Assembly (NCBI GenBank): GCA_014523665.1
Contig: JAATVR010000198.1
Coordinates: forward strand, 1-11,947
DNA length: 11,947 nucleotides
From: Nitrososphaerales archaeon TH526
GTDB lineage: Archaea > Thermoproteota > Nitrososphaeria > Nitrososphaerales > Nitrososphaeraceae
Direction of reading: 5' to 3'
Below are positions 2,941 through 11,549 of the stretch, piece by piece; within the stretch, counting starts at the first letter, position 1; each line of letters opens with the position of its first letter. The notes beneath the pieces are model-generated. The model searched no databases. It was given only the letters and a program-made list of their open reading frames with translations, and was not told the DNA's origin. The position numbers were made by a program, and so were the translations under genes.

Positions 2941-3519
2941 CTAATCCTCCTTTGTATTCCCCAGATTTTGAAGTGCTTCTATTTCTTCTTCAGATATCTC
3001 ATTGAATTTCTCTTCTGTCTGTAATCTGGCCAGATCTTCTTTGGTCAGCTTTGGTAATAAGTTTTGTATATCTTGTTCATCCATTTGCAATGCATATAAC
3101 ACATTGTAAGTTGTGCTTGTGCTCTTTGCTTGTCCATCTCTTCTAATTAGTAGAATTGAATGGCCCTTATCGATTTCTCTCTGTATTCCTTGCACTGCAG
3201 ATTGAGGAGTTGACCATATCTTTGCATCTTCGATCTTCAGTGCTCTGACATCGATTGCAGTCAGCTCTATCTTAGGATGAGTAATTGGCTCTTCTCTGTC
3301 ATAATTCCAGTCACCTAGTATGTGTGCTCGGTAATGAGGCTTTAATCTCTTTTTACCTTGCATGTCCTTGACTTCACGATCAAATCCCTCAAATGGTGCT
3401 ACGATCTTTATGACCATCGTGTCTTGATCGTTTACGAATTTCAGGAACCTTCCCATACTCCTGGACTGCATAATTTGTCTTCTTTCTGCATTCCGTTTAC
3501 GAATCTCATCAAGTACCAT
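2941..3519 (-). CDS. SSB-like (putative OB-fold) single-stranded DNA-binding protein
   Basis: This 192-residue protein has no recognised catalytic motif. Residues about 20-145 show alternating strand-like segments (GRFLKFVNDQDTMVIKIVAP, then KIELTAIDVRALKIE, then HSILLIRRDGQ and TTYNVLYA) compatible with an OB fold. The last 40 residues are acidic (EISEEEIEAL and an ED end), as in many SSBs, where the tail recruits partners. The segment order parallels the broken gene at 466-849. I infer a role in binding single-stranded DNA during replication or recombination of the element; a transcription-associated role is an alternative. ATG 3519 lacks a clear Shine-Dalgarno. A BoxA at 3614-3624 would give a leader of about 70 nt that contains a hairpin. 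Confidence 0.6.
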   Translation of the reverse strand: MVLDEIRKRNAERRQIMQSRSMGRFLKFVNDQDTMVIKIVAPFEGFDREVKDMQGKKRLKPHYRAHILGDWNYDREEPITHPKIELTAIDVRALKIEDAKIWSTPQSAVQGIQREIDKGHSILLIRRDGQAKSTSTTYNVLYALQMDEQDIQNLLPKLTKEDLARLQTEEKFNEISEEEIEALQNLGNTKED

Positions 3520-3557
3520 TTTAAAAAATTAGACCCCTGATGTTTCCAATTGTTGTT

Positions 3558-3573
3558 CCTTTCGGATGAAAGG
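3558..3573 (-). other. Hairpin in the leader of the SSB-like gene
   Basis: CCTTTC, 4-nt loop, GAAAGG is a perfect 6-bp stem lying 39-54 bases before the ATG at 3519. If transcription starts about 25 bp after the BoxA at 3614-3624, the hairpin lies within the 5' leader. It could affect translation or be a dyad operator. Confidence 0.3.
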
Positions 3574-3613
3574 AGATGGTATTTACTAACATCAAGTTAC
3601 CTGTGGAGAAGGG

Positions 3614-3624
3614 CCAAATATAAA
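3614..3624 (-). promoter_or_regulatory. BoxA-like promoter element for the SSB-like gene
   Basis: On the minus strand the bases read TTTATATTTGG, close to the archaeal TATA consensus. It lies about 95-105 bp before ATG 3519, so the transcript would carry a leader. It is the best TATA match between the two divergent genes on this strand. Confidence 0.4.
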
Positions 3625-3632
3625 CCTTTACC

Positions 3633-3650
3633 TAGCTACGTTAGCTACGT
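3633..3650. repeat. Tandem 9-bp repeat between divergent BoxA elements
   Basis: TAGCTACGT occurs twice head to tail (3633-3641 and 3642-3650). The pair sits between the leftward BoxA (3614-3624) and the rightward BoxA (3668-3676). This is a suitable place for an operator controlling both the SSB-like gene and the zinc-ribbon gene. Confidence 0.45.
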
Positions 3651-3667
3651 AATTGCCGTAATAACAG

Positions 3668-3703
3668 TTATAAAATAGAGTAGGGAATACTATGTAAAGG
3701 AGA
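3668..3703 (+). promoter_or_regulatory. BoxA and ribosome binding site of the zinc-ribbon gene
   Basis: TTATAAAAT at 3668-3676 is TATA-like. AAAGGAGA at 3696-3703 is a strong Shine-Dalgarno sequence nine bases before ATG 3713 and fixes that start. Transcription would begin close to the Shine-Dalgarno, giving a very short leader. Confidence 0.5.
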
Positions 3704-3712
3704 ATTATCAGT

Positions 3713-3937
3713 ATGCAAATTGATATAATTAAAAAAGAAAGAGGATACATGTGTGAACAATGTGGCTACAAATGGGTGCCCAGAATATTCAAGCAGGAAT
3801 ATAATAAGAAGCCACGTATGTGTCCAGTATGTAAGTCACCTGATTATGATAAGACTAATGAAAAGAGTAGAATAAGAAATAGTGAAGTTAGGGCTGCTGC
3901 AACTACAGAAATTATTTATCAATCAAAGAAGAAATAA
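3713..3937 (+). CDS. Small rubredoxin-like zinc-ribbon protein
   Basis: This is a 74-residue protein. Residues about 13-43 carry CEQCGYKW and, after a basic linker, CPVCKSPDY. The two C-x2-C pairs make a classic zinc ribbon. The rest is a Lys/Arg-rich tail ending in KKK. Such proteins bind nucleic acid or a protein partner; nothing shows enzymatic activity. A good Shine-Dalgarno supports the start. The gene converges with the primase-like gene, with only six bases between their stops. It diverges from the SSB-like gene and may share its control region. Its partner is unknown. Confidence 0.8.
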   Translation: MQIDIIKKERGYMCEQCGYKWVPRIFKQEYNKKPRMCPVCKSPDYDKTNEKSRIRNSEVRAAATTEIIYQSKKK

Positions 3938-3943
3938 AACCTC

Positions 3944-4672
3944 TTAACCATCCATTTTATTTTTAATTAAATCATATAGGTCAATGCCTCCAGTCAATTT
4001 CCATTGGTATGTTGCTAGCTTTTCAGGTGAAGGCGGAAAATATCCTGTATCTTTGGCAACATTTAGATAGTAATCTATTTTCTCGTCAATATTATAATTA
4101 AGATCGATTTTAGCAATAAAATTATAACGATCTGTCCACTGCTTAATCCATGTAAAAGCATCTATATGTGACATCTTCTTTATGTTGACTGCATATGGAG
4201 TAAGGATCAACCAAATGATTCTTTTTCTACAATCAGAGACTCCAGTATTCCATAATACTTCAATCCAATTATATACATGTCTATTAATTTTTCGCTTCCT
4301 TGTTGTACTATCAGTAGCTCCTCCAAATCTGTTCTTGGTCTGACGATTTCCAGCAACTAAAGAAAGATGATGCATAAAATCATAGAATAAATCAGTATGT
4401 GGATGCAAATCACCAAAACTGGGAATGGTATCACTTTCGTAGCTCCATTCATGTTCGATTCTAACAGTTTCCATTAAACCATATTTCATTTTCACGTTTA
4501 TTGTGCCTGGTACTCGTAAAAACATGGATGCAAAATTTGGATGATTCCCCAAATCAGCTTGATTACTTGAAAGATACTTCTTTGCAAACGGTAGAAATTC
4601 CTCACTTACAACGTTGCTAGTATTCTTCTTATTTTTAGATGCCATTAAAGGTAAGATTATGTGAAAAGCCAA
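3944..4672 (-). CDS. PriX/primase-like protein without a visible catalytic half
   Basis: This 242-residue protein has FLRVPGTINVK at about 52-62, resembling the R-x-PG-x-hN-K signature late in the archaeal primase-polymerase fold. Residues about 145-185 (CRKRIIWLILTPYAVNIKKM, then a helix with WIKQW) resemble the helical PriX / primase C-terminal domain, whose usual form is DGR-hRI-LILAPYLhN. The h-D-h-D metal-binding motif expected upstream in a catalytic PrimPol is not present. Family knowledge suggests a role in priming element replication, perhaps as a non-catalytic subunit; that is inference. The start is TTG 4672, supported by AGGAG five bases upstream; ATG 4645 is the alternative. It overlaps the preceding gene by 38 bp (or 11 bp from ATG 4645), so translation is probably coupled. 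Confidence 0.6.
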   Translation of the reverse strand: MAFHIILPLMASKNKKNTSNVVSEEFLPFAKKYLSSNQADLGNHPNFASMFLRVPGTINVKMKYGLMETVRIEHEWSYESDTIPSFGDLHPHTDLFYDFMHHLSLVAGNRQTKNRFGGATDSTTRKRKINRHVYNWIEVLWNTGVSDCRKRIIWLILTPYAVNIKKMSHIDAFTWIKQWTDRYNFIAKIDLNYNIDEKIDYYLNVAKDTGYFPPSPEKLATYQWKLTGGIDLYDLIKNKMDG

Positions 4673-5276
4673 GTTTACTCCTACATTTCATACATTCTCT
4701 GGGTTTTGTGGGAATATCTAGTATATTGACAACTTCCCTTTCAATGACTTCATCACATTTATAGCACTTCCACTGTGATTTCTTTACTAATTGATATGTT
4801 TCGGATATTGCGATTATGATGCCACTAATCATAATAGTTCCTGAATGTGTGCGGATTGCTTCTGGGATGGTAAGTATTTTTGGTGCTGTCTTTGGGGATT
4901 CATCATCGTCGGTACCACAACTATTGGATTTTACTGTAAATCCTGATTCAGCTACTTTAAGATCATAACCCATTACCCATGAGGCATTTTGGACTAAAGT
5001 AGATTCGAGAATGCACTGTAGTTCTCGAATGTTTGTTTTATTATCATGTACGTTATTGTGACTAACATGAAATCTTTCACATGCCCTTTTTAGGTTTGTT
5101 AATGCACTGTTCCAACTATTACCTACAGCAAATACTAATGGTTTATCATTGATTACCACATGAATTACAAACCCTTCTCTAGAAGAACCGTGTCTTGTAA
5201 TTTTTGAAATGCCATATCCATTTATCGAATCTGTGAGAATAAGGACGTCTGATGGTGATATAGTTGTCGGTGCCAT
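4635..5276 (-). CDS. MCM-N-terminus-like OB / zinc-ribbon protein, no helicase domain
   Basis: This is a 213-residue protein. The first half (about 1-110) is of unknown fold. From about 143 the order PEAIRTHSGTIMISGIIIAI, a VKKSQWKCYKC strand-ribbon and PRECMKC resembles the OB fold and zinc ribbon in the N-terminal domain of MCM helicases, where the motif grips DNA and helps hexamers form. The AAA+ ATPase that should follow is absent, because the frame ends about 12 residues after the last cysteine pair. It may be a stand-alone ssDNA-binding replication factor or the remains of a larger one. ATG 5276 lies two bases after the stop of the upstream gene. The overlap with the primase-like gene suggests the two act together. 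Confidence 0.55.
   Translation of the reverse strand: MAPTTISPSDVLILTDSINGYGISKITRHGSSREGFVIHVVINDKPLVFAVGNSWNSALTNLKRACERFHVSHNNVHDNKTNIRELQCILESTLVQNASWVMGYDLKVAESGFTVKSNSCGTDDDESPKTAPKILTIPEAIRTHSGTIMISGIIIAISETYQLVKKSQWKCYKCDEVIEREVVNILDIPTKPRECMKCRSKLGFSHNLTFNGI
4678..4682 (-). promoter_or_regulatory. Shine-Dalgarno deciding a TTG start
   Basis: AGGAG on the minus strand is followed by five bases and TTG 4672, inside the 3' end of the previous gene. No comparable site precedes ATG 4645, so the TTG start is favoured. Confidence 0.5.
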
Positions 5277-5278
5277 AG

Positions 5279-5710
5279 TCAGATACTTTCCAATGTTGAC
5301 TTCAGTTTATGACGATGATTTTGTTGTTGTAAGTTAGTAATACATACTCTATTTTCATTATTTTGTCTCCTATTATGGAGTTGATCGTGATTTTGTATTC
5401 TTGTTATAATTCTTCCATTATTCCTCTTGATATCATCATTCATTCTGAACCTTGAGAGACTTTCTTTGCCATTCATACAAATATGATTAGTACCTTTGCG
5501 AACTACTGCTGTCCAAGGTAACGCTGATATATTCTGTTCAATAGAATAATTATATTCATCAAACCTATATCTACAAAATCCCAGTTTTACAACATATATC
5601 CATTTACCATATTTGTTACACGGTGTACGAATTTTTTGTCGTAGTTTTGTATGAATGGGTATAAATCCTAATTCCCTGTAATTCTGCTTCCTGTGTACTA
5701 GTTTAGGCAT
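5279..5710 (-). CDS. Hypothetical basic protein in the replication operon
   Basis: This protein has 143 residues from ATG 5710 (MPKLVHRK). I do not recognise it. The first 90 residues have a normal globular mix with aromatic strands (KWIYVVKLGFCRYRFDEYNY, then ALPWTAVVRKG). The last 50 are strongly polar and basic (many N, Q, R, H), perhaps a nucleic-acid-binding or disordered tail. Earlier in-frame starts exist (ATG 5722, TTG 5731). ATG 5710 was chosen because it overlaps the previous stop by only eight bases, as the other genes of this operon do. The stop is two bases before the next start, which supports it being a real gene despite the odd C-terminus. Confidence 0.55.
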   Translation of the reverse strand: MPKLVHRKQNYRELGFIPIHTKLRQKIRTPCNKYGKWIYVVKLGFCRYRFDEYNYSIEQNISALPWTAVVRKGTNHICMNGKESLSRFRMNDDIKRNNGRIITRIQNHDQLHNRRQNNENRVCITNLQQQNHRHKLKSTLESI

Positions 5711-6086
5711 ATTTTTTCTCATCTTCTTCAATCGTTTCTATTGTATCTATCCTAGGTCCAATACTGGGGCGCTCATTATTTGCAGCTTCCCAATCGGCAC
5801 CATCTGTGGGTATCAGACCATACTTTATTCTCTTCTCTTTTTCAAAATTTAATTTCTCTAAATGATCGGAAAGAAAATCAGATGTTCGTAATACTTCGAA
5901 TATATGAATGTCAAGTTCCCGATTTGACATTCCCTTTACTAGTTTTAATATGTGCTCTTCATTTACATTAATATTCGAGTCCAATTCTTTCTGTGTTACT
6001 CCACTTAGGCATTCTTGTAATTCTGTTAACTTGCGATTTACCTGCTCGTTAGTTTCCACTGCTAAATTTACATTTTTGTTTTCCAA
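5703..6086 (-). CDS. Hypothetical helical acidic protein (TTG start or frameshift product)
   Basis: This is a 127-residue protein of unknown family, mostly predicted helix (EQVNRKLTELQECLSG, LDIHIFEVLRTSDFLSDHLE) with an acidic C-terminus (ETIEEDEKKYA). The only upstream start in this frame is TTG 6086, which has no Shine-Dalgarno; a TAG lies a few codons further up. The small frame at 6049-6162 overlaps it by 38 bp in another phase and does have an excellent Shine-Dalgarno. This protein may therefore be translated by coupling from it or by a frameshift. Its stop overlaps the next gene by eight bases. Confidence 0.6.
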   Translation of the reverse strand: MENKNVNLAVETNEQVNRKLTELQECLSGVTQKELDSNINVNEEHILKLVKGMSNRELDIHIFEVLRTSDFLSDHLEKLNFEKEKRIKYGLIPTDGADWEAANNERPSIGPRIDTIETIEEDEKKYA

Positions 6087-6162
6087 GTTTGTTGACTACA
6101 TTAATGGCATTGGCGTTCACAGTTGACTTCCAGAACTGAGTCTTTGATAATCTGCTTGTCAT
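6049..6162 (-). CDS. Small 37-residue protein in the operon
   Basis: ATG 6162 directly follows the TAA of the previous gene (6163-6165). It is preceded by GAGGAGG about eight bases upstream, the best Shine-Dalgarno of the operon. The frame runs 37 codons to TAA 6049-6051 and encodes a basic peptide (MTSRLSKTQFWKST at its start). It fills what is otherwise the only sizeable gap in the operon. It could be a stand-alone small protein, a leader that couples translation to the next gene, or the first part of a longer fusion made by a frameshift within the overlap. Confidence 0.5.
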   Translation of the reverse strand: MTSRLSKTQFWKSTVNANAINVVNKLGKQKCKFSSGN

Positions 6163-6480
6163 TTAGATGTCCTCCTCTTCGCCTACTATTCTCATGCTAC
6201 ATGGCCTGAAGAGTCCACAATTACAGCGCTCACTATTGCCATTACAATAAATAGTTACTACGTGACCATATCTGTCACGGGCAGTACAATGTCGGTCAAC
6301 ATGGTGTGTACAAATGCAGTTAGCAGACTCTCCTGTCCCGGGCCACTCTTCCTTAGTTGATTTCCTGATCTTCTCTAGCTTTCCCTGTGCGGTATCATAA
6401 AACAGCGCATTACAGAGCTGGTTATCCCAGGCATAACACTTAATTCCAGGTTTAGATAATATAGAAACTGTATCAGTCAT
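6163..6480 (-). CDS. Cys/His-rich small protein, probably zinc-binding
   Basis: This is a 105-residue protein. Residues about 54-92 hold CICTHHVDRHC and, after a YGHVVTIYC strand, CNCGLFRPC, so at least eight Cys and three His lie within 40 residues. That is enough for two metal sites. There is no signal peptide. The fold family is not recognised. ATG 6480 overlaps the TGA of the preceding gene (ATGA type), and GGGAG lies nine to ten bases upstream, so translation is coupled and the start is secure. Its place in a run of zinc-binding proteins suggests a DNA- or protein-binding role. Confidence 0.7.
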   Translation of the reverse strand: MTDTVSILSKPGIKCYAWDNQLCNALFYDTAQGKLEKIRKSTKEEWPGTGESANCICTHHVDRHCTARDRYGHVVTIYCNGNSERCNCGLFRPCSMRIVGEEEDI

Positions 6481-6749
6481 CTAATAGCGCTCCCATGCTG
6501 TTGCATTGACTGATTCTGGCTCGAAGTGCTAGAACACGCTGGTCTGACAACCTGTTGTTCTAACGCCCCTTTGTTTTTGAATATTTTAGAGCAATATCTA
6601 CAGAAATAAAATAAAACATCAGTTTCATTTATCCTAACTTTAATAATCGTTGATGACTGCTTTGAACAGTTTAATCCTTCGCAGAGGCTACTAGAAAATT
6701 GAGCCATAGAAGGGTTTTTATTATTAATTTTTAGCGTAGAAGATTTCAT
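6477..6749 (-). CDS. Small zinc-ribbon-like protein
   Basis: This is a 90-residue protein. Residues about 23-54 read CEGLNC, an IIKVRINETDVLFYF pair of strands and CRYCSKIF: two cysteine pairs separated by a beta hairpin, a typical zinc ribbon. The N-terminus and C-terminus are polar and probably flexible (SSTSSQNQSMQQHG). Function is unknown; similar short ribbons often bind nucleic acids. ATG 6749 lies three bases after the stop of the previous gene, with GAGGG about ten bases upstream. Confidence 0.7.
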   Translation of the reverse strand: MKSSTLKINNKNPSMAQFSSSLCEGLNCSKQSSTIIKVRINETDVLFYFCRYCSKIFKNKGALEQQVVRPACSSTSSQNQSMQQHGSAIR

Positions 6750-6752
6750 GAG

Positions 6753-6992
6753 CTAATGTCCCTCGTTATTATCACCAAATGTTGTCATGACTGCGACACC
6801 GTCGTGAATTTGTGGCTGTGTTGTCGAGCATTGCCGGTATTTTCCTTTCCTTTCCCCAGAATCAGATATGCCTAACGCATAGGACAGCAGGATTCCTGCA
6901 GCCGAACCTACAGGGATCGACCTAACGGTTGCAATATCCTTAACTCTGCCCCATGTCCTTCTATCTACATCGATTAAAGTTTTCAATTTCAT
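6753..6992 (-). CDS. Small ribbon-helix-helix-like protein, first gene of the operon
   Basis: This is a 79-residue protein. Residues 2-42 (KLKTLIDVDRRTWGRVKDIA, then IPVGSAAGILLSYALG) fit a strand-helix-helix plan like RHH DNA-binding proteins, but no diagnostic residue proves it. The tail is polar and may be unstructured. As the first gene after the divergent promoter, it could be the element's autoregulator. ATG 6992 lies about 22 bp from a BoxA-like element, so the mRNA is probably leaderless. Confidence 0.6.
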   Translation of the reverse strand: MKLKTLIDVDRRTWGRVKDIATVRSIPVGSAAGILLSYALGISDSGERKGKYRQCSTTQPQIHDGVAVMTTFGDNNEGH

Positions 6993-7040
6993 TAAATATT
7001 TAAAAAGACTAAAATATAGGGTTTTTTCTGGGTTTATATT
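6993..7040. promoter_or_regulatory. Compact divergent promoter with a shared TATA
   Basis: Only 48 bp separate the two divergent starts. AAAATATA at 7011-7018 is centred 26-27 bp before ATG 7041 and, read on the other strand as TATATTTT, about 22 bp before ATG 6992. One near-palindromic TATA could thus serve leaderless transcripts in both directions. A second match, TTTATATT at 7033-7040, abuts ATG 7041 and could serve the leftward operon with a short leader. Confidence 0.5.
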
Positions 7041-8618
7041 ATGATAACCCCATATTTATTAGACGGTAGTTTTTATAACAAAAAGAAACCAATACTACAA
7101 TTAAAGGTTCTAAGTGAGTTAGTCAGTCATGACAAGCTTTCAAAAAGCCAATTTCAGAAATTCTTCAATCAACATCATTATAAAGAAGTATCAGAGAGTT
7201 TTGATAATTTACGAAAAAAGAAGTTTATTGAGGAGGCTGGGACAAAGATAGGAAGGGGGGAACCAGAAAAATTCTATCGTATAACAGAAGAGGGTCTAGA
7301 AGCATTATTCGATAGAAATATTACTCCTGAGAAATTTTGGTTTTTGATTACATTCTATTGTTGGAACTCTGTTAGCTCAGTTAGATCGGGGTTAATTGAT
7401 AAGTTTTATAGGTCGTTCGTAAAAAAATATACGAAATATTCTTCTGGATTTGGTTCCATTGCCAACATTGACCAAATAAACGACATGTGTATAAATTGGC
7501 TGAATAATAATTCGCATACTGATATTGGTTCAAAAATTATAGAAACTCTTGCTTCTTATCCATTATTAACCATTGATGACTTATCTTCAAAATTAAAGTG
7601 CTCTAAGACATTAGTAAAGAAAGAACTAGATAATATTTCAATGTCAGAGGGGGGTGATGGATATTTATTTCCTCTTGACGAATACGATACAGAATTCTCT
7701 ACATATGGAAGATATTTGGGTATGCTTCAGCATTGCATGGTAATATATAGAACCAAAGCTAGTAACAAGACATTTTTCTATGAACTGTCCTTGGTCGGAA
7801 TAATAATGTACCTTACTCTTGTCAGGCACAGAGGTCCACCCGAGAAGCTTATATCCGCATGTAACAGAATAGGATATAGTTACAGAAATCGAGTTCTCCC
7901 ATTGATTTTTGGAAAATGGTCCACACTAAGGAAGAATCTCGGTCCTATTGCAGCATATAATTTTGAAATACTTTTAAATAAAGAGGCTCGGAATAAATCT
8001 ATTTCATTATCAGTAGTTATGGGGGGAATTAATGAATTCTATGCGAGTATGAAATCAATAACAAGTTATAATATTGAACAAATGAAAAGAATATACAATG
8101 AGGGCGAAGAGGTTATTTTCAATATAATGAAAGAGAATATCATAAAGCCCGAAAAAACTATGGATATTGAAAAAAAACTGCAAGAGGTTTCACTTCTGTC
8201 AAGTTATAATGATATAGCAAGACTTCAACGGGATTTAGAGACAATGAACAAGCAATACTTCGGACGAGATAATTTTGTTGAGGCGTTATGCAATGCCTTT
8301 TCGGAAGAAATCGCTTTTTTATATTACTTTAACCTTTTTGACGATTCCAGTTTTAGTAGATTTTTGGCTAATCCATACTTTTTTTCATCTAGTAAATATC
8401 TTTTACACTACCAAGTCAAGGAATCTCACAAAGGCAAAAGACCTCGCAGTTATAGAAGTTTAATTAAGCAAACGTCAATTGACACATTTACTAGGAGAAA
8501 ATTAATACAAATCATGAAAGAAACCGATGAAATCCATGCGTGGTTCAGTACGTGGGTAGACGACATATATAAATTTCAGAATGATGTCTCAGATACTATT
8601 TTAAGACTGGAATTCTAG
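7041..8618 (+). CDS. Large winged-helix protein of unknown family
   Basis: This is a 525-residue protein. Residues about 20-90 form a winged helix (KVLSELVSHDKLSKSQFQKF, then a wing ending GEPEKFYRITEEG). A second HTH lies at about 160-200 (IIETLASYPLLTIDDLSSKL, then CSKTLVKKEL). The remaining 300 residues are mixed helical, with aromatic segments and no Walker, nuclease or transmembrane motif that I can see. It may be a large element-encoded regulator or a replication initiator; initiators are often two winged helices, but that is only a possibility. ATG 7041 fits a leaderless mRNA. The 3' end overlaps the convergent integrase gene by four bases. Confidence 0.75.
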   Translation: MITPYLLDGSFYNKKKPILQLKVLSELVSHDKLSKSQFQKFFNQHHYKEVSESFDNLRKKKFIEEAGTKIGRGEPEKFYRITEEGLEALFDRNITPEKFWFLITFYCWNSVSSVRSGLIDKFYRSFVKKYTKYSSGFGSIANIDQINDMCINWLNNNSHTDIGSKIIETLASYPLLTIDDLSSKLKCSKTLVKKELDNISMSEGGDGYLFPLDEYDTEFSTYGRYLGMLQHCMVIYRTKASNKTFFYELSLVGIIMYLTLVRHRGPPEKLISACNRIGYSYRNRVLPLIFGKWSTLRKNLGPIAAYNFEILLNKEARNKSISLSVVMGGINEFYASMKSITSYNIEQMKRIYNEGEEVIFNIMKENIIKPEKTMDIEKKLQEVSLLSSYNDIARLQRDLETMNKQYFGRDNFVEALCNAFSEEIAFLYYFNLFDDSSFSRFLANPYFFSSSKYLLHYQVKESHKGKRPRSYRSLIKQTSIDTFTRRKLIQIMKETDEIHAWFSTWVDDIYKFQNDVSDTILRLEF

Positions 8619-9820
8619 GGAATCTGGTTTATAGTTTTGTTTAGAAGTACTCCCGGTTTTATGCTTGCTAGTCTCGGATCCTGTCGGACCATTACCATCA
8701 GTTGATTCATCTGTTCACGTATAGTCGCAATCTCTTCTCGGTGTTTGAGCTCCATGGTTTCAATTCCATCTTTCTTTTTAGTTACTTCATCTAACTTTAG
8801 TCGCAATCGGTTTTCTTCATTTATTGTTAGATAATCTACAGCTTTAAGATATTCGTTTAGTACATATGTGTCTAGGGGTGAGAAGTAGTGATCATCTAAT
8901 CCTATACTGTGACCCATGAATAGTTCTTTTGTTCGTTGTTCTACTTTTGCATAGATCAACTGAGTATCAAAAAACTTTCTGAATCCTACTGTGAGCTTTA
9001 CATTCTTTCTAATCTTCCCTTTCTCACGGTGGAGCTCTGTAACTCTTTCCACCGTCCTAATTCCTGACTTTTCCACAGTACGCGATACCAGACGTTCTAC
9101 TGTTCTAAGCTTGAGTGGTTTTGCATTATGAACAGAAACAATATCTTCTCGGTCAAATTGGTCTCTAAAGAGTGGAGACTTGGGGGTTAATCTCTCACCA
9201 CATCTCTCTCTATATTTTAGATAAATGTCTATGGCTTTAGCGGCCTCTGGTGTGGTGAGTGTTAGATAACGCTGGTTGGAGTCTGAATACACTCGCATCT
9301 GATATAGCTTGTAGTCCGGAATAGTAATTAGATCCTCTAATTTCAAATCGATTATTGCTCTAATTCTAATACCTGATGAAGCTAAAAGCAAAATAATTGC
9401 TCTTGTTCTTTCATCACTGACCCCAAGCATTTTTGATATCTCTTCTGTAGTGTAACCCCGATTGTCAAGCGGTCTCTCTTCTTCTCCCAGATATCGATAG
9501 ATTTTTTTCTTGCTTAGCGGCACGTCGTTTAGTTCGTAAAATGTCATAATTGCCGCCAGATATTGGCTTCGTGTGGCATATCGTAATGAAAATGGCGGAT
9601 TTTTTAATTGAATTAGATATTCAATAATTTGATTCTGTATAATTTTGGGATTTTCTTGATGAATTAATAGGTCATCTGGATTGCCTATGTTTAGATAATT
9701 CATGTATTTTTGGAGAGCATAGCTATACGCAGCTTTGGTGACAGGGGATTTGAGACCCTCAATAAATATGCGATAGGAATTACCGGGTAGCGAGAGTTGA
9801 AATGCCTTTCCTCTGAACAT
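8615..9820 (-). CDS. Tyrosine recombinase (integrase)
   Basis: This 401-residue protein would catalyse site-specific recombination between element and chromosome. An N-terminal SAM-like core-binding domain covers about 15-110. The catalytic domain shows Arg I (SSGIRIR, R152), Arg II (VGFRKFF, R281), the GHS histidine (H304) and the nucleophile Tyr312 in DDHYFSP. The position three before Arg II, usually His, is Val278, which is unusual. A charged coiled-coil-like tail follows (about 330-385). ATG 9820 lies 25 bp from a BoxA, so the mRNA is probably leaderless. The gene sits 61 bp from the 3' end of a tRNA gene, the expected place for an integrase whose attachment site is that tRNA. Confidence 0.9.
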   Translation of the reverse strand: MFRGKAFQLSLPGNSYRIFIEGLKSPVTKAAYSYALQKYMNYLNIGNPDDLLIHQENPKIIQNQIIEYLIQLKNPPFSLRYATRSQYLAAIMTFYELNDVPLSKKKIYRYLGEEERPLDNRGYTTEEISKMLGVSDERTRAIILLLASSGIRIRAIIDLKLEDLITIPDYKLYQMRVYSDSNQRYLTLTTPEAAKAIDIYLKYRERCGERLTPKSPLFRDQFDREDIVSVHNAKPLKLRTVERLVSRTVEKSGIRTVERVTELHREKGKIRKNVKLTVGFRKFFDTQLIYAKVEQRTKELFMGHSIGLDDHYFSPLDTYVLNEYLKAVDYLTINEENRLRLKLDEVTKKKDGIETMELKHREEIATIREQMNQLMVMVRQDPRLASIKPGVLLNKTINQIP

Positions 9821-9869: not shown

Positions 9870-9885
9870 CCCACTTTAAAGTGGG
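9870..9885. repeat. Perfect 16-bp palindrome across the tRNA 3' end
   Basis: CCCACTTTAAAGTGGG is its own reverse complement. Its right four bases lie in the 3' acceptor end of the tRNA gene (which ends at 9882); the rest lies in the flank between tRNA and integrase. It could be part of the attachment site, an integrase binding site or a transcription end signal. Confidence 0.6.
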
Positions 9886-9955
9886 CCCAAGGGGGTTTGA
9901 ACCCCTGGCCGACCGGTTATGAGCCGGTCGCTCTACCAGGCTGAGCTATGGGCCC
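9882..9955 (-). tRNA. tRNA-Met (anticodon CAU), elongator type
   Basis: The 74-nt cloverleaf is complete: acceptor GGGCCCA/TGGGCCC with discriminator A, D-stem GCTC/GAGC, anticodon stem ACCGG/CCGGT with loop CTCATAA, 5-nt variable region, and T-arm AGGGG-TTCAAAC-CCCCT. CCA is not encoded. Position 1 is G paired with C72, and the anticodon stem lacks the three G:C pairs of initiators. That points to elongator Met, with tRNA-Ile (CAU, lysidine-like modified) as the alternative. A TTTTAATATC BoxA-like element lies about 28 bp upstream. The neighbouring integrase suggests the 3' end is an attachment site. Confidence 0.93.
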
Positions 9956-10170: not shown

Positions 10171-11094
10171 TCAAATCCTAAATTGATTCTCGTTAGCATA
10201 ATAGTTTCTCCAATAGAGGGGGTGTCCATGCACTAGATCATAGGTATCACTAACTTTTCTTATTGATTCGACATATTTACCAGGATGGCGATAAAGGTCC
10301 AGAATAATCTCCATTAATCCAGGATTTGTCAATCTAGAAACATAGTGATCGCCGCCTATCTCAGAGCTGAGTTCCATTTCGGCTTTTTTTACCTCTTCCT
10401 GATCGACATACCATCCGTATTCTTCTTCTTTCTGGTCCCAAAGTTTTTGGTTATATTGTTTCCTACGATAATCAAGCTCTCTTCGGCATGAATCTCTCTC
10501 CTGAGTAACCTTTCCTAAATCATTCATTGCGGTCTTAAGTGCTGGCATGTTAGCTTGATACTCTTGCAATAGATTCATCGTTGCTCCTTGTCTTTCTACT
10601 TCATTTTTGGTTTCTGATCGCAGTCGCAGGATCTCGTTTTTCTGATTCTCAAGATATTCGGATAATCTTTCTATGGGAATACCGAGATTACCAATAGCGT
10701 AGAGATTGCGAATCCGTTCAAAAAATTGGTCCATAGGTATTTCGTGTTTGAAACACAGCACTTCGAGAGTAATTATGATTGCTTCAAATCTTTTATATTC
10801 GGAGAATAGGTTTTCATTCTGGGATATTTCTAGTCGTAATTCCTTTTCTTCAAGTAGACTCTTCAATCTGAGCAGGGGTGCGTAATCCTCCACGCGCATG
10901 CCCCGATCTCTAAGTTCTAAGGCGACTCCGCGTAACAAGTCAAAATCCGCATCATCCTGTCTGCATTGTTGTAATATCCCGCTAACGGTTCCTGTACCAA
11001 TCCCGACGTCCTTGGCAATTTCGTCTCTTGAGTATCCTCGCAACCACATTCTGATTACCTCCAACCTTACTGGTTGAGGAATCCTTCCTTCCAT
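10171..11094 (-). CDS. Second tandem HTH / coiled-coil DNA-binding protein
   Basis: This is a 307-residue protein. Residues 9-45 form a clear HTH (LEVIRMWLRGYSRDEIAKDV, GIGTGTVSGIL). Another helical unit follows at about 53-90 (GVALELRDRGMRVEDYAPLL), then a long coiled coil at about 145-235 and a short C-terminal domain rich in aromatic residues (HPLYWRNYYANENQF). The architecture matches 1808-2710. The family is common in Nitrososphaeria; its role is not established to my knowledge. BoxA-like TTTTTTATTT lies about 26 bp before ATG 11094, suggesting a leaderless mRNA. The 11-bp TGAC array lies 88-180 bp upstream and is the obvious candidate operator. The gene sits on the 5' side of the tRNA, so it may be chromosomal or from a different element. 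Confidence 0.85.
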   Translation of the reverse strand: MEGRIPQPVRLEVIRMWLRGYSRDEIAKDVGIGTGTVSGILQQCRQDDADFDLLRGVALELRDRGMRVEDYAPLLRLKSLLEEKELRLEISQNENLFSEYKRFEAIIITLEVLCFKHEIPMDQFFERIRNLYAIGNLGIPIERLSEYLENQKNEILRLRSETKNEVERQGATMNLLQEYQANMPALKTAMNDLGKVTQERDSCRRELDYRRKQYNQKLWDQKEEEYGWYVDQEEVKKAEMELSSEIGGDHYVSRLTNPGLMEIILDLYRHPGKYVESIRKVSDTYDLVHGHPLYWRNYYANENQFRI

Positions 11095-11115
11095 TCAGCT
11101 CCATTAATGGACCAG

Positions 11116-11125
11116 AAATAAAAAA
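11116..11125 (-). promoter_or_regulatory. BoxA-like element of the second HTH/coiled-coil gene
   Basis: On the minus strand TTTTTTATTT is centred about 26 bp before ATG 11094. The phased TGAC array starts about 57 bp further upstream. Confidence 0.4.
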
Positions 11126-11181
11126 GAAGTGGCGCTCACTTTTTTTGACTATATGAGGTCACATGAGTGTAAATAGTCAAA

Positions 11182-11273
11182 TGACGGTTGTATGACTGAT
11201 AAATGACGGAGACATGACTAGGATTTGACATTCTATTGACCATCGTCTGACCGATACTAGACAGACCTATGGC
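11182..11273. repeat. Helically phased 11-bp array with TGAC core
   Basis: TGAC occurs at 11182, 11193, 11204, 11215, 11226, 11237 and 11248, exactly eleven bases apart, followed in the same phase by AGAC (11259) and TGGC (11270). The seven bases between cores differ in every unit, so this is not a recent tandem duplication: only the core and the spacing are kept. That pattern suits a row of protein contacts on nearly one face of the helix. An 11-bp period is not a codon multiple, so coding cannot explain it. A further TGAC at 11146 and inverted GTCA at 11158 and 11176 flank it out of phase. Confidence 0.8.
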
Positions 11274-11549
11274 AGATAAAAATCAGTTGGACTAGAATCG
11301 AAAGAAAATAAATCCTTGTTTATCATCCTACAAAAGCATAATAAAATTAGTGTTCTTCCCAGGAATGTAATGACTTGCTAGAGCTGAAACTGCAAACCAG
11401 GTAGTAGTTTGTCGATCACTTCACGATCTAACATACTATAGCTTATTCTCCAATTTAATTTAATTATGCAGATCTATGTTCTAGAATATTGTATTCACTT
11501 CATTTTTTTCTTGTTTGCAAGGTCAACGATGATGTATTTATCTGAACCA
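11274..11549. other. Intergenic stretch, no gene seen
   Basis: Between the TGAC array and the stop of the PqqC-like gene I see no reading frame with a credible start, no RNA gene and no long repeat. An AT-rich stretch (AATTTAATTTAATTA) lies near 11453-11467. A T-run with TCTTGTTTGCAA near 11506-11520 could end transcription or be incidental; the same 12 bases recur near 1281-1292. Confidence 0.4.

Follow-up and report, generated by a model that had tools for sequence, protein, structure and literature searches.

A nine-unit array of four-nucleotide cores at exact 11-bp steps stands upstream of an HTH gene in the window, by which we mean the whole stretch of 11,947 nucleotides that was analysed, and arrays of this kind form a wider pattern before the genes of one protein family. 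As far as sequence can tell, the pattern suggests an undescribed family whose proteins are aligned in rows on DNA next to the genes that encode them. We propose with moderate confidence that copies of the neighbouring protein would sit next to each other on the array, with one copy on each turn, and would control their own gene. A multi-copy family of uncharacterised function would then be tied to a readable DNA code, with a candidate partner for each array. The hosts, Nitrososphaeraceae, are soil ammonia oxidisers. No description of such arrays in Nitrososphaeria was found among titles and abstract openings of a largely open-access literature (bioRxiv not included).

The array and the gene next to it

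Exact TGAC words start at positions 11182, 11193, 11204, 11215, 11226, 11237 and 11248, and AGAC at 11259 and TGGC at 11270 continue the 11-bp phase, just as the sequence-only reading had described. The two deviating words are real units; both are identical in the orthologue from the same genus (genome G066). On the strand of the neighbouring gene the array reads GTCA. Over all 4-mers and all fixed periods from 8 to 40 bp, the longest run in the window is 7. Markov shuffling of the window, done 60 times, gave a longest run of 3 in 55 cases and of 4 in 5. The earlier reading had asked whether shuffled sequences of the same composition give such arrays often, and they do not: 3000 shuffles of the intergenic region 11095-11549 stayed at 4 or below, 4 being reached in 8, against the real 7. 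In the 4.9-Mb assembly that includes the window, this array is the sole match to a four-unit TGACN7 pattern, and the three-unit pattern occurs at one place besides. Tandem Repeats Finder detected 2.5 copies here, a low number because most spacers differ. The spacers had been called unrelated. They are not entirely so, since two 19-mers at a distance of 22 bp from each other show 79% similarity.

The neighbouring gene and the other features of the locus are listed in Table 1. Its protein has 72 homologues at E≤0.001. The structure model is all-helical, with a three-helix HTH and no strand, at low overall confidence (pTM 0.27), and the long helix of this model is proposed as the part used for self-association. 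A PDB sequence search found nothing convincing (best E 0.008), and the best E with Foldseek was 0.23. On the upstream side of the start codon, at a distance of 22-31 bp, there is a TATA-like A/T stretch (11116-11125), separated from the array by 56 bp and located in a block that probably acts as the promoter of the HTH gene.

Table 1. Features of the array locus in the window
Feature	Position	Strand	Basis
Nine-core phased array	11182..11273	+	TGAC x7, AGAC, TGGC, exact 11-bp steps
HTH + coiled-coil protein gene, 307 aa, proposed array binder	10171..11094	-	ORF; Pfam HTH_23 E=1.8e-5
Tri-helical HTH, predicted DNA-binding, residues 7-47	10954..11076	-	
Predicted long helix, interpreted as coiled coil, residues 141-225	10420..10674	-	Structure model, pTM 0.27
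Probable promoter block of the HTH gene	11113..11139	-	27 bp identical in same-genus orthologue

Other parts of the window deserve a brief description. Positions 2941-9820 are likely an integrated element, within which lie a PriX-like primase (3944-4672) and an MCM OB-like protein (4635-5276) that narrowly missed the cut-off. A tyrosine recombinase (8615-9820) ends beside tRNA-Met (9881-9955). Roughly 100 bp before a 300-aa HTH-like gene at 1808, AACA appears four times at 10-bp steps (about 1702-1735). This may be chance, since runs of 4 also arose in 5 of the 60 window shuffles. Kinship of that HTH-like protein (1808-2710) with the array's neighbour is not claimed (BLASTP E=0.32), and a search that reaches close relatives only found no relative of it in viral contigs.

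Conservation and turnover of the units

The orthologous locus in G066 (G066:C33) has the same gene order as the window: a haem-oxygenase-like gene, the array, the HTH gene and tRNA-Met. Past tRNA-Met the window has the integrase, and G066 has a 509-aa open frame without a Pfam match. The nine units align in register between the two genomes. Identity is 34/36 (94%) in the cores, 37/63 (59%) in the spacers and 92/137 (67%) in the flank, and the difference between cores and spacers gives a Fisher p of 0.00013 for this one pair of sequences. Because cores outlast spacers, the comparison points to selection on core and phase as opposed to the spacer, which supports what had been read from the window. 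Phased cores, the absence of which from orthologous loci would speak against that reading, are present in G066 and in syntenic relatives.

The same reading had held that the array is not a product of slippage, and this stands only in part. Core and phase appear to be selected, but many relatives carry perfect tandem 11-mers in their arrays, with spacers specific to the species. In four species of genus g5 the family gene sits in one conserved neighbourhood and the array spacers differ. Arrays there keep the 11-bp step with differing units (TGACGGGTAAA, TGACCAGGGTT and TGACGGCTATT), and the fourth species (L016) has mixed units, of which 2/7 read ATCA for GTCA. As the spacers differ per species, units must be copied and spread within an array while the core and the 11-bp step largely survive. 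Thus, slippage or unit amplification helps to build such arrays, given the perfect tandem copies in relatives. A functionless minisatellite made by slippage would account for these copies, but we regard this as extremely improbable. The window spacers differ and the core outlasts them in the orthologue. Moreover, the arrays are associated with a single gene family, on a particular side of the gene, and a second code with 9/12-bp spacing exists, as described below.

A gene family with two array layouts

The neighbouring protein belongs to a family of HTH and coiled-coil proteins of Nitrososphaeraceae. Its relatives are found in 21 of 70 genomes of this taxonomic family at E≤1e-10, and an alignment of the protein family (A1) matches in 37 of the 70 at E≤1e-6. 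On a sample of the phylum, A1 matched 3 of 300 genomes, all from the same taxonomic family. A second alignment (A2), made for the members with the type II layout defined below, matched 49 of 300 genomes of the order, other families included.

With 60 further stretches, taken around part of the A1 matches and added to the earlier loci, 104 distinct genes with an HTH start were obtained, and 101 of them have at least 250 bp upstream (starts were estimated from the profile). The 101 are not all independent, because 19 pieces shorter than 120 aa and, among the 25 type I members, four similar copies of genome G044 are included. Layouts were called with 200 shuffles per upstream region at p≤0.01. 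Phased TGAC words occur upstream of 71/101 family genes or gene pieces: 25 have type I (11 bp), 47 have type II (9/12 bp), one of them both (L136, weak), and 30 have neither, several of these carrying other phased words. Among 283 control upstream regions, taken from other genes of the fetched loci, only 1 was called type I and 6 type II. Furthermore, of these seven, at least half turn out to be arrays or genes of the family. For L098, the sole type I control, the upstream array is one of those of G044. As for type II, L078 and L106 are family arrays viewed from the divergent gene, L188 seems to be the latter portion of a family gene, and L077, L078 and L113 are the same gene from three genomes, which has just one pair at a distance of 21 bp. 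The array is therefore tied to the gene family next to it, in line with the earlier reading.

The spacings are also visible in pair counts over the 101 upstream regions. GTCA pairs on the gene strand number 109 at 11 bp (shuffled mean 0.43), 91 at 22 bp and 65 at 33 bp, the 11-bp period having been fixed beforehand. For TGAC on the gene strand, there are 60 pairs at 9 bp, 64 at 12 bp and 62 at 21 bp (shuffled about 0.3), distances that were taken from the same data later scored. In type I, the core points away from the gene and the array ends at a median of 103 bp before the start. In type II, 9-bp and 12-bp steps alternate and add up to 21 bp, or two turns; the core points to the gene, and the array ends at a median of 41 bp before the start, often near a TATA-like box (by eye). 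Both layouts prefer the unit A-W-W-TGAC-S-R, and in type I, G hardly ever precedes TGAC. A family gene can be preceded by as many as 11 exact phased tetranucleotides. Many type II proteins are longer than those of type I, reaching 611 aa vs 307 aa. The structure model of a type II protein was poor (pLDDT 58). P0102, a distant type II relative, matched an archaea-specific SMC-related model with 26.5 bits (cut-off 300), probably through its coiled coil only.

The layouts cluster on a protein tree of 82 members. Type I requires 7 changes vs 16.5 with shuffled labels and type II 11 vs 27.4, with 0/500 shuffles as low for either, a clustering that near-copies on the tree help. The core itself also varies between sub-clades, with the register kept. 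It has changed to TTCA at 11 bp in L024, L069, L177 and L198 and to GTCG/GCCG in L027 and L142; L152 has GTCCA. TGAAC at 9/12 bp is found in L191, L497 and L500. A different family of the order has TTTGA at about 10 bp (L481, L483). One position of the recognition helix is F in two of the three TGAAC genes and H in the third. The same position is S in 31, Y in 9, T in 2, H in 2 and N in 1 of 46 TGAC type II genes (with one gap), and S in 19 and T in 4 of 23 type I genes, none having F. Among 50 unclassed genes, 3 have F. Such a match between a recognition-helix residue and the core variant is a hint from three TGAAC genes only. Two spacing codes and several core variants within one family amount to a natural experiment on HTH stacking.

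Arrays without a family gene

Arrays were also searched for blindly in the 70 genomes. A four-unit 11-bp pattern gave 110 matches in 20 genomes vs 9 for the reversed pattern, and 7 of these 9 lie in G063, probably derived from an 11-bp TTCA array before a family gene. For 19 of 34 distinct type I arrays, the expected side carries a family gene at no more than 900 bp; for 2 more (L103, where the expected side is off the contig, and L107) the gene is on the opposite side. The remaining 13 are orphans, in which tblastn found no gene remnants; three are at the 3′ ends of NuoN-like genes and three are G044 copies. For type II, a four-unit pattern matched 53 times, in 23 genomes, and its reversed form 2 times. 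At strict type II loci, a family gene was detected by HMM in 19/38, where L203/L237, L217/L239 and L220/L238 are the same place counted twice each; two further loci examined held no such array. Several type II loci without a family gene sit inside open frames (L202, L214, L217/L239, L220/L238), and L229, inspected by eye, seems to keep the start of a family gene. For 11 type II orphans, tblastn gave a weak match at L226 (E 0.007) and one at L227 (E 0.041) that is away from the array. Three-unit patterns were less clean, with 52 matches vs 14 reversed (13 genomes) and 42 vs 18 (12 genomes). The word TTTGTGCT was seen flanking arrays at L026, L079, the G044 copies, L215, L234, L069 and L177; as a flanking motif it is present in 6/101 upstream regions only.

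The arrays at the NuoN-like genes (Pfam Proton_antipo_M) comprise 4, 17 and 8 TGAC units in three g5 genomes (L079, L081 and L083, respectively), and no family gene was detected beside them. One might therefore suppose that another TGAC-reading protein, such as a general regulator or a chromatin protein, binds the arrays, and that the HTH genes are its commonest targets. The same core before paralogues of much diverged sequence would agree with this. However, the association is with one gene family, the spacing class clusters on the tree of that family, and core variants appear in some of its sub-clades. We judge such a binder improbable.

G044 has eight scattered similar copies of an array (L095-L102) in differing contexts, and the family gene that follows is broken or was not found within the stretches examined. 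Such copies, none with an unbroken full-length gene in those stretches, would fit a decayed integrative or transposable element with the array, as iterons, and the gene as its core, and in the window an integrase and tRNA-Met do adjoin the gene. Against this, no clear transposon ends or target-site duplications were seen by eye in the G044 alignment. The window gene and the integrase are on opposite sides of the tRNA, the order of gene and tRNA is the same in G066, and in genus g5 the family gene keeps its conserved chromosomal neighbourhood. Nor was any relative of the window protein found in genome contigs or viral contigs by a search that reaches close relatives only. A mobile or replicative origin is accordingly very improbable in our estimate.

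Outside these genomes, a five-unit TGACN7 scan found at least 119 stretches in GTDB contigs and at least 120 in IMG/VR. Among 80 GTDB matches listed and classified, 33 lie in open frames of at least 100 codons and 47 outside; among 80 from IMG/VR the numbers are 45 and 35. The pattern occurs in many unrelated bacteria and viruses among the matches listed, so that the 11-bp TGAC motif alone is not diagnostic of the family. The diagnostic feature is the link to the gene family. One array-bearing match among the GTDB contigs listed is from Candidatus Nitrosocosmicus. In Bacteroidota contigs (L247, L251, L261, L265, L297 and others), 11-bp TGAC arrays such as TGACTACTGAA stand outside long open frames beside genes that look unrelated (by eye). 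The viral L378, L428 and L432 have 11-bp TGAC arrays outside long frames and within about 1 kb of frames that resemble large terminases (by eye).

Proposed function

An operator for the gene's own control is, from the sequence evidence, the best supported of the functions that had been offered, the others being a centromere-like site and a filament seed. The array would be a cis-acting platform for the protein encoded just downstream. Each HTH domain would read one A-W-W-TGAC-S-R unit. As 11-bp units recur on nearly the same helix face, 7-9 monomers or dimers could sit side by side, held together by their coiled coils. The most likely role of such a platform is autoregulation with a steep cooperative response, because the array lies 56 bp upstream of the TATA-like box and because arrays usually precede family genes. 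We infer that this protein is the binder; its stoichiometry, and the purpose and sign of such regulation, are inferences too. The 13/34 type I arrays without a detectable family gene alongside and the 30/101 family genes with neither spacing stand against the proposal. The arrays may have a further purpose besides self-control, as some of them are geneless and as it is unusual for a regulator to have its long phased sites so often at its own gene.

One such purpose is a centromere-like or nucleoid-anchoring site, with autoregulation as a side effect, as for ParR on R1 parC. Such a site would look like the present array, with its numerous direct repeats of about 11 bp immediately ahead of the gene that encodes the presumed binder. 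Long strict arrays are few per genome, unlike a broad regulon (neighbours were checked for part of the matches), and they stand also where no family gene was found, at L088 and the NuoN-like loci. ParR of R1 itself requires at least two 11-bp repeats, according to PMC9426499. On the other side, neither a partition NTPase nor a gene for filaments was seen among the neighbours examined. At the syntenic locus, the neighbours scanned comprise metabolic genes, a protein with a cyclase domain, proteins lacking any match and, at a distance of about 5 kb, an Mrp/NUBPL-type Fe-S ATPase. Moreover, many genomes hold several members that share the TGAC core, which is poor for telling centromeres apart, and many type II arrays end near a TATA-like box in the fashion of a promoter element. 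We consider such a site rather unlikely.

A more general version would be an archaeal class of row-forming proteins. A large and fast-turning family of Nitrososphaeraceae and relatives would read an 11-bp and a 9+12-bp code, each protein would assemble on its own array into a superhelical nucleoprotein body, and these bodies would anchor or partition chromosome regions, with self-regulation as a by-product. This is a doubtful proposal. If the arrays do serve segregation or nucleoid structure, they would be a lead for archaea; to our knowledge, such systems are poorly known in this group.

Comparison with known systems

Several known systems were considered. Cbp1, the CRISPR repeat-binding protein, was rejected with 14.3 bits for its NCBIfam model against a cut-off of 140. 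An iteron-type replication initiator was also rejected: no Rep family was found in Pfam, NCBIfam or PHROGs, and the gene is chromosomal by synteny. The small terminase (TerS) of phages has a likeness in the HTH fold only; no terminase Pfam match exists among the window proteins scanned, and the gene is in a syntenic chromosomal locus.

The R1 plasmid offers the parallel that the sequence-only reading had drawn. In PMC9426499, parC is described as 11-bp direct repeats upstream of the operon, on which a small DNA-binding protein seeds a higher-order structure. The layout is indeed alike, with an 11-bp direct-repeat array upstream of a gene for a DNA-binding protein. However, this protein has a tri-helical HTH and a long predicted coiled coil, whereas ParR is a ribbon-helix-helix protein, and Pfam found no ribbon-helix-helix family in it at E≤0.1. 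An actin-like ParM gene was not found among the 10 window proteins scanned, the shared g5 neighbours or the L078 and L108 neighbours scanned. A PF06406 search of genomes is uninformative, with 0/7 genomes but also 0/14 controls. The family differs from ParMRC further in that many genomes have several paralogues and the spacers are free to vary. Thus the parallel holds for the layout, and membership in the R1 parC/ParR system is ruled out by the missing ribbon-helix-helix and by the lack of a partition NTPase among the neighbours examined.

The preferred reading, an operator for the protein's own gene, leads to a different comparison. Autoregulated archaeal transcription factors have their operators next to BRE/TATA. 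The array here occupies a comparable position ahead of the TATA-like box of its gene, and type II arrays in many cases end near one. The differences lie in the number and distribution of the sites: up to 11 phased tetranucleotides stand before a family gene here, and 17 at an array without such a gene, and few such long arrays are present elsewhere in the genome.
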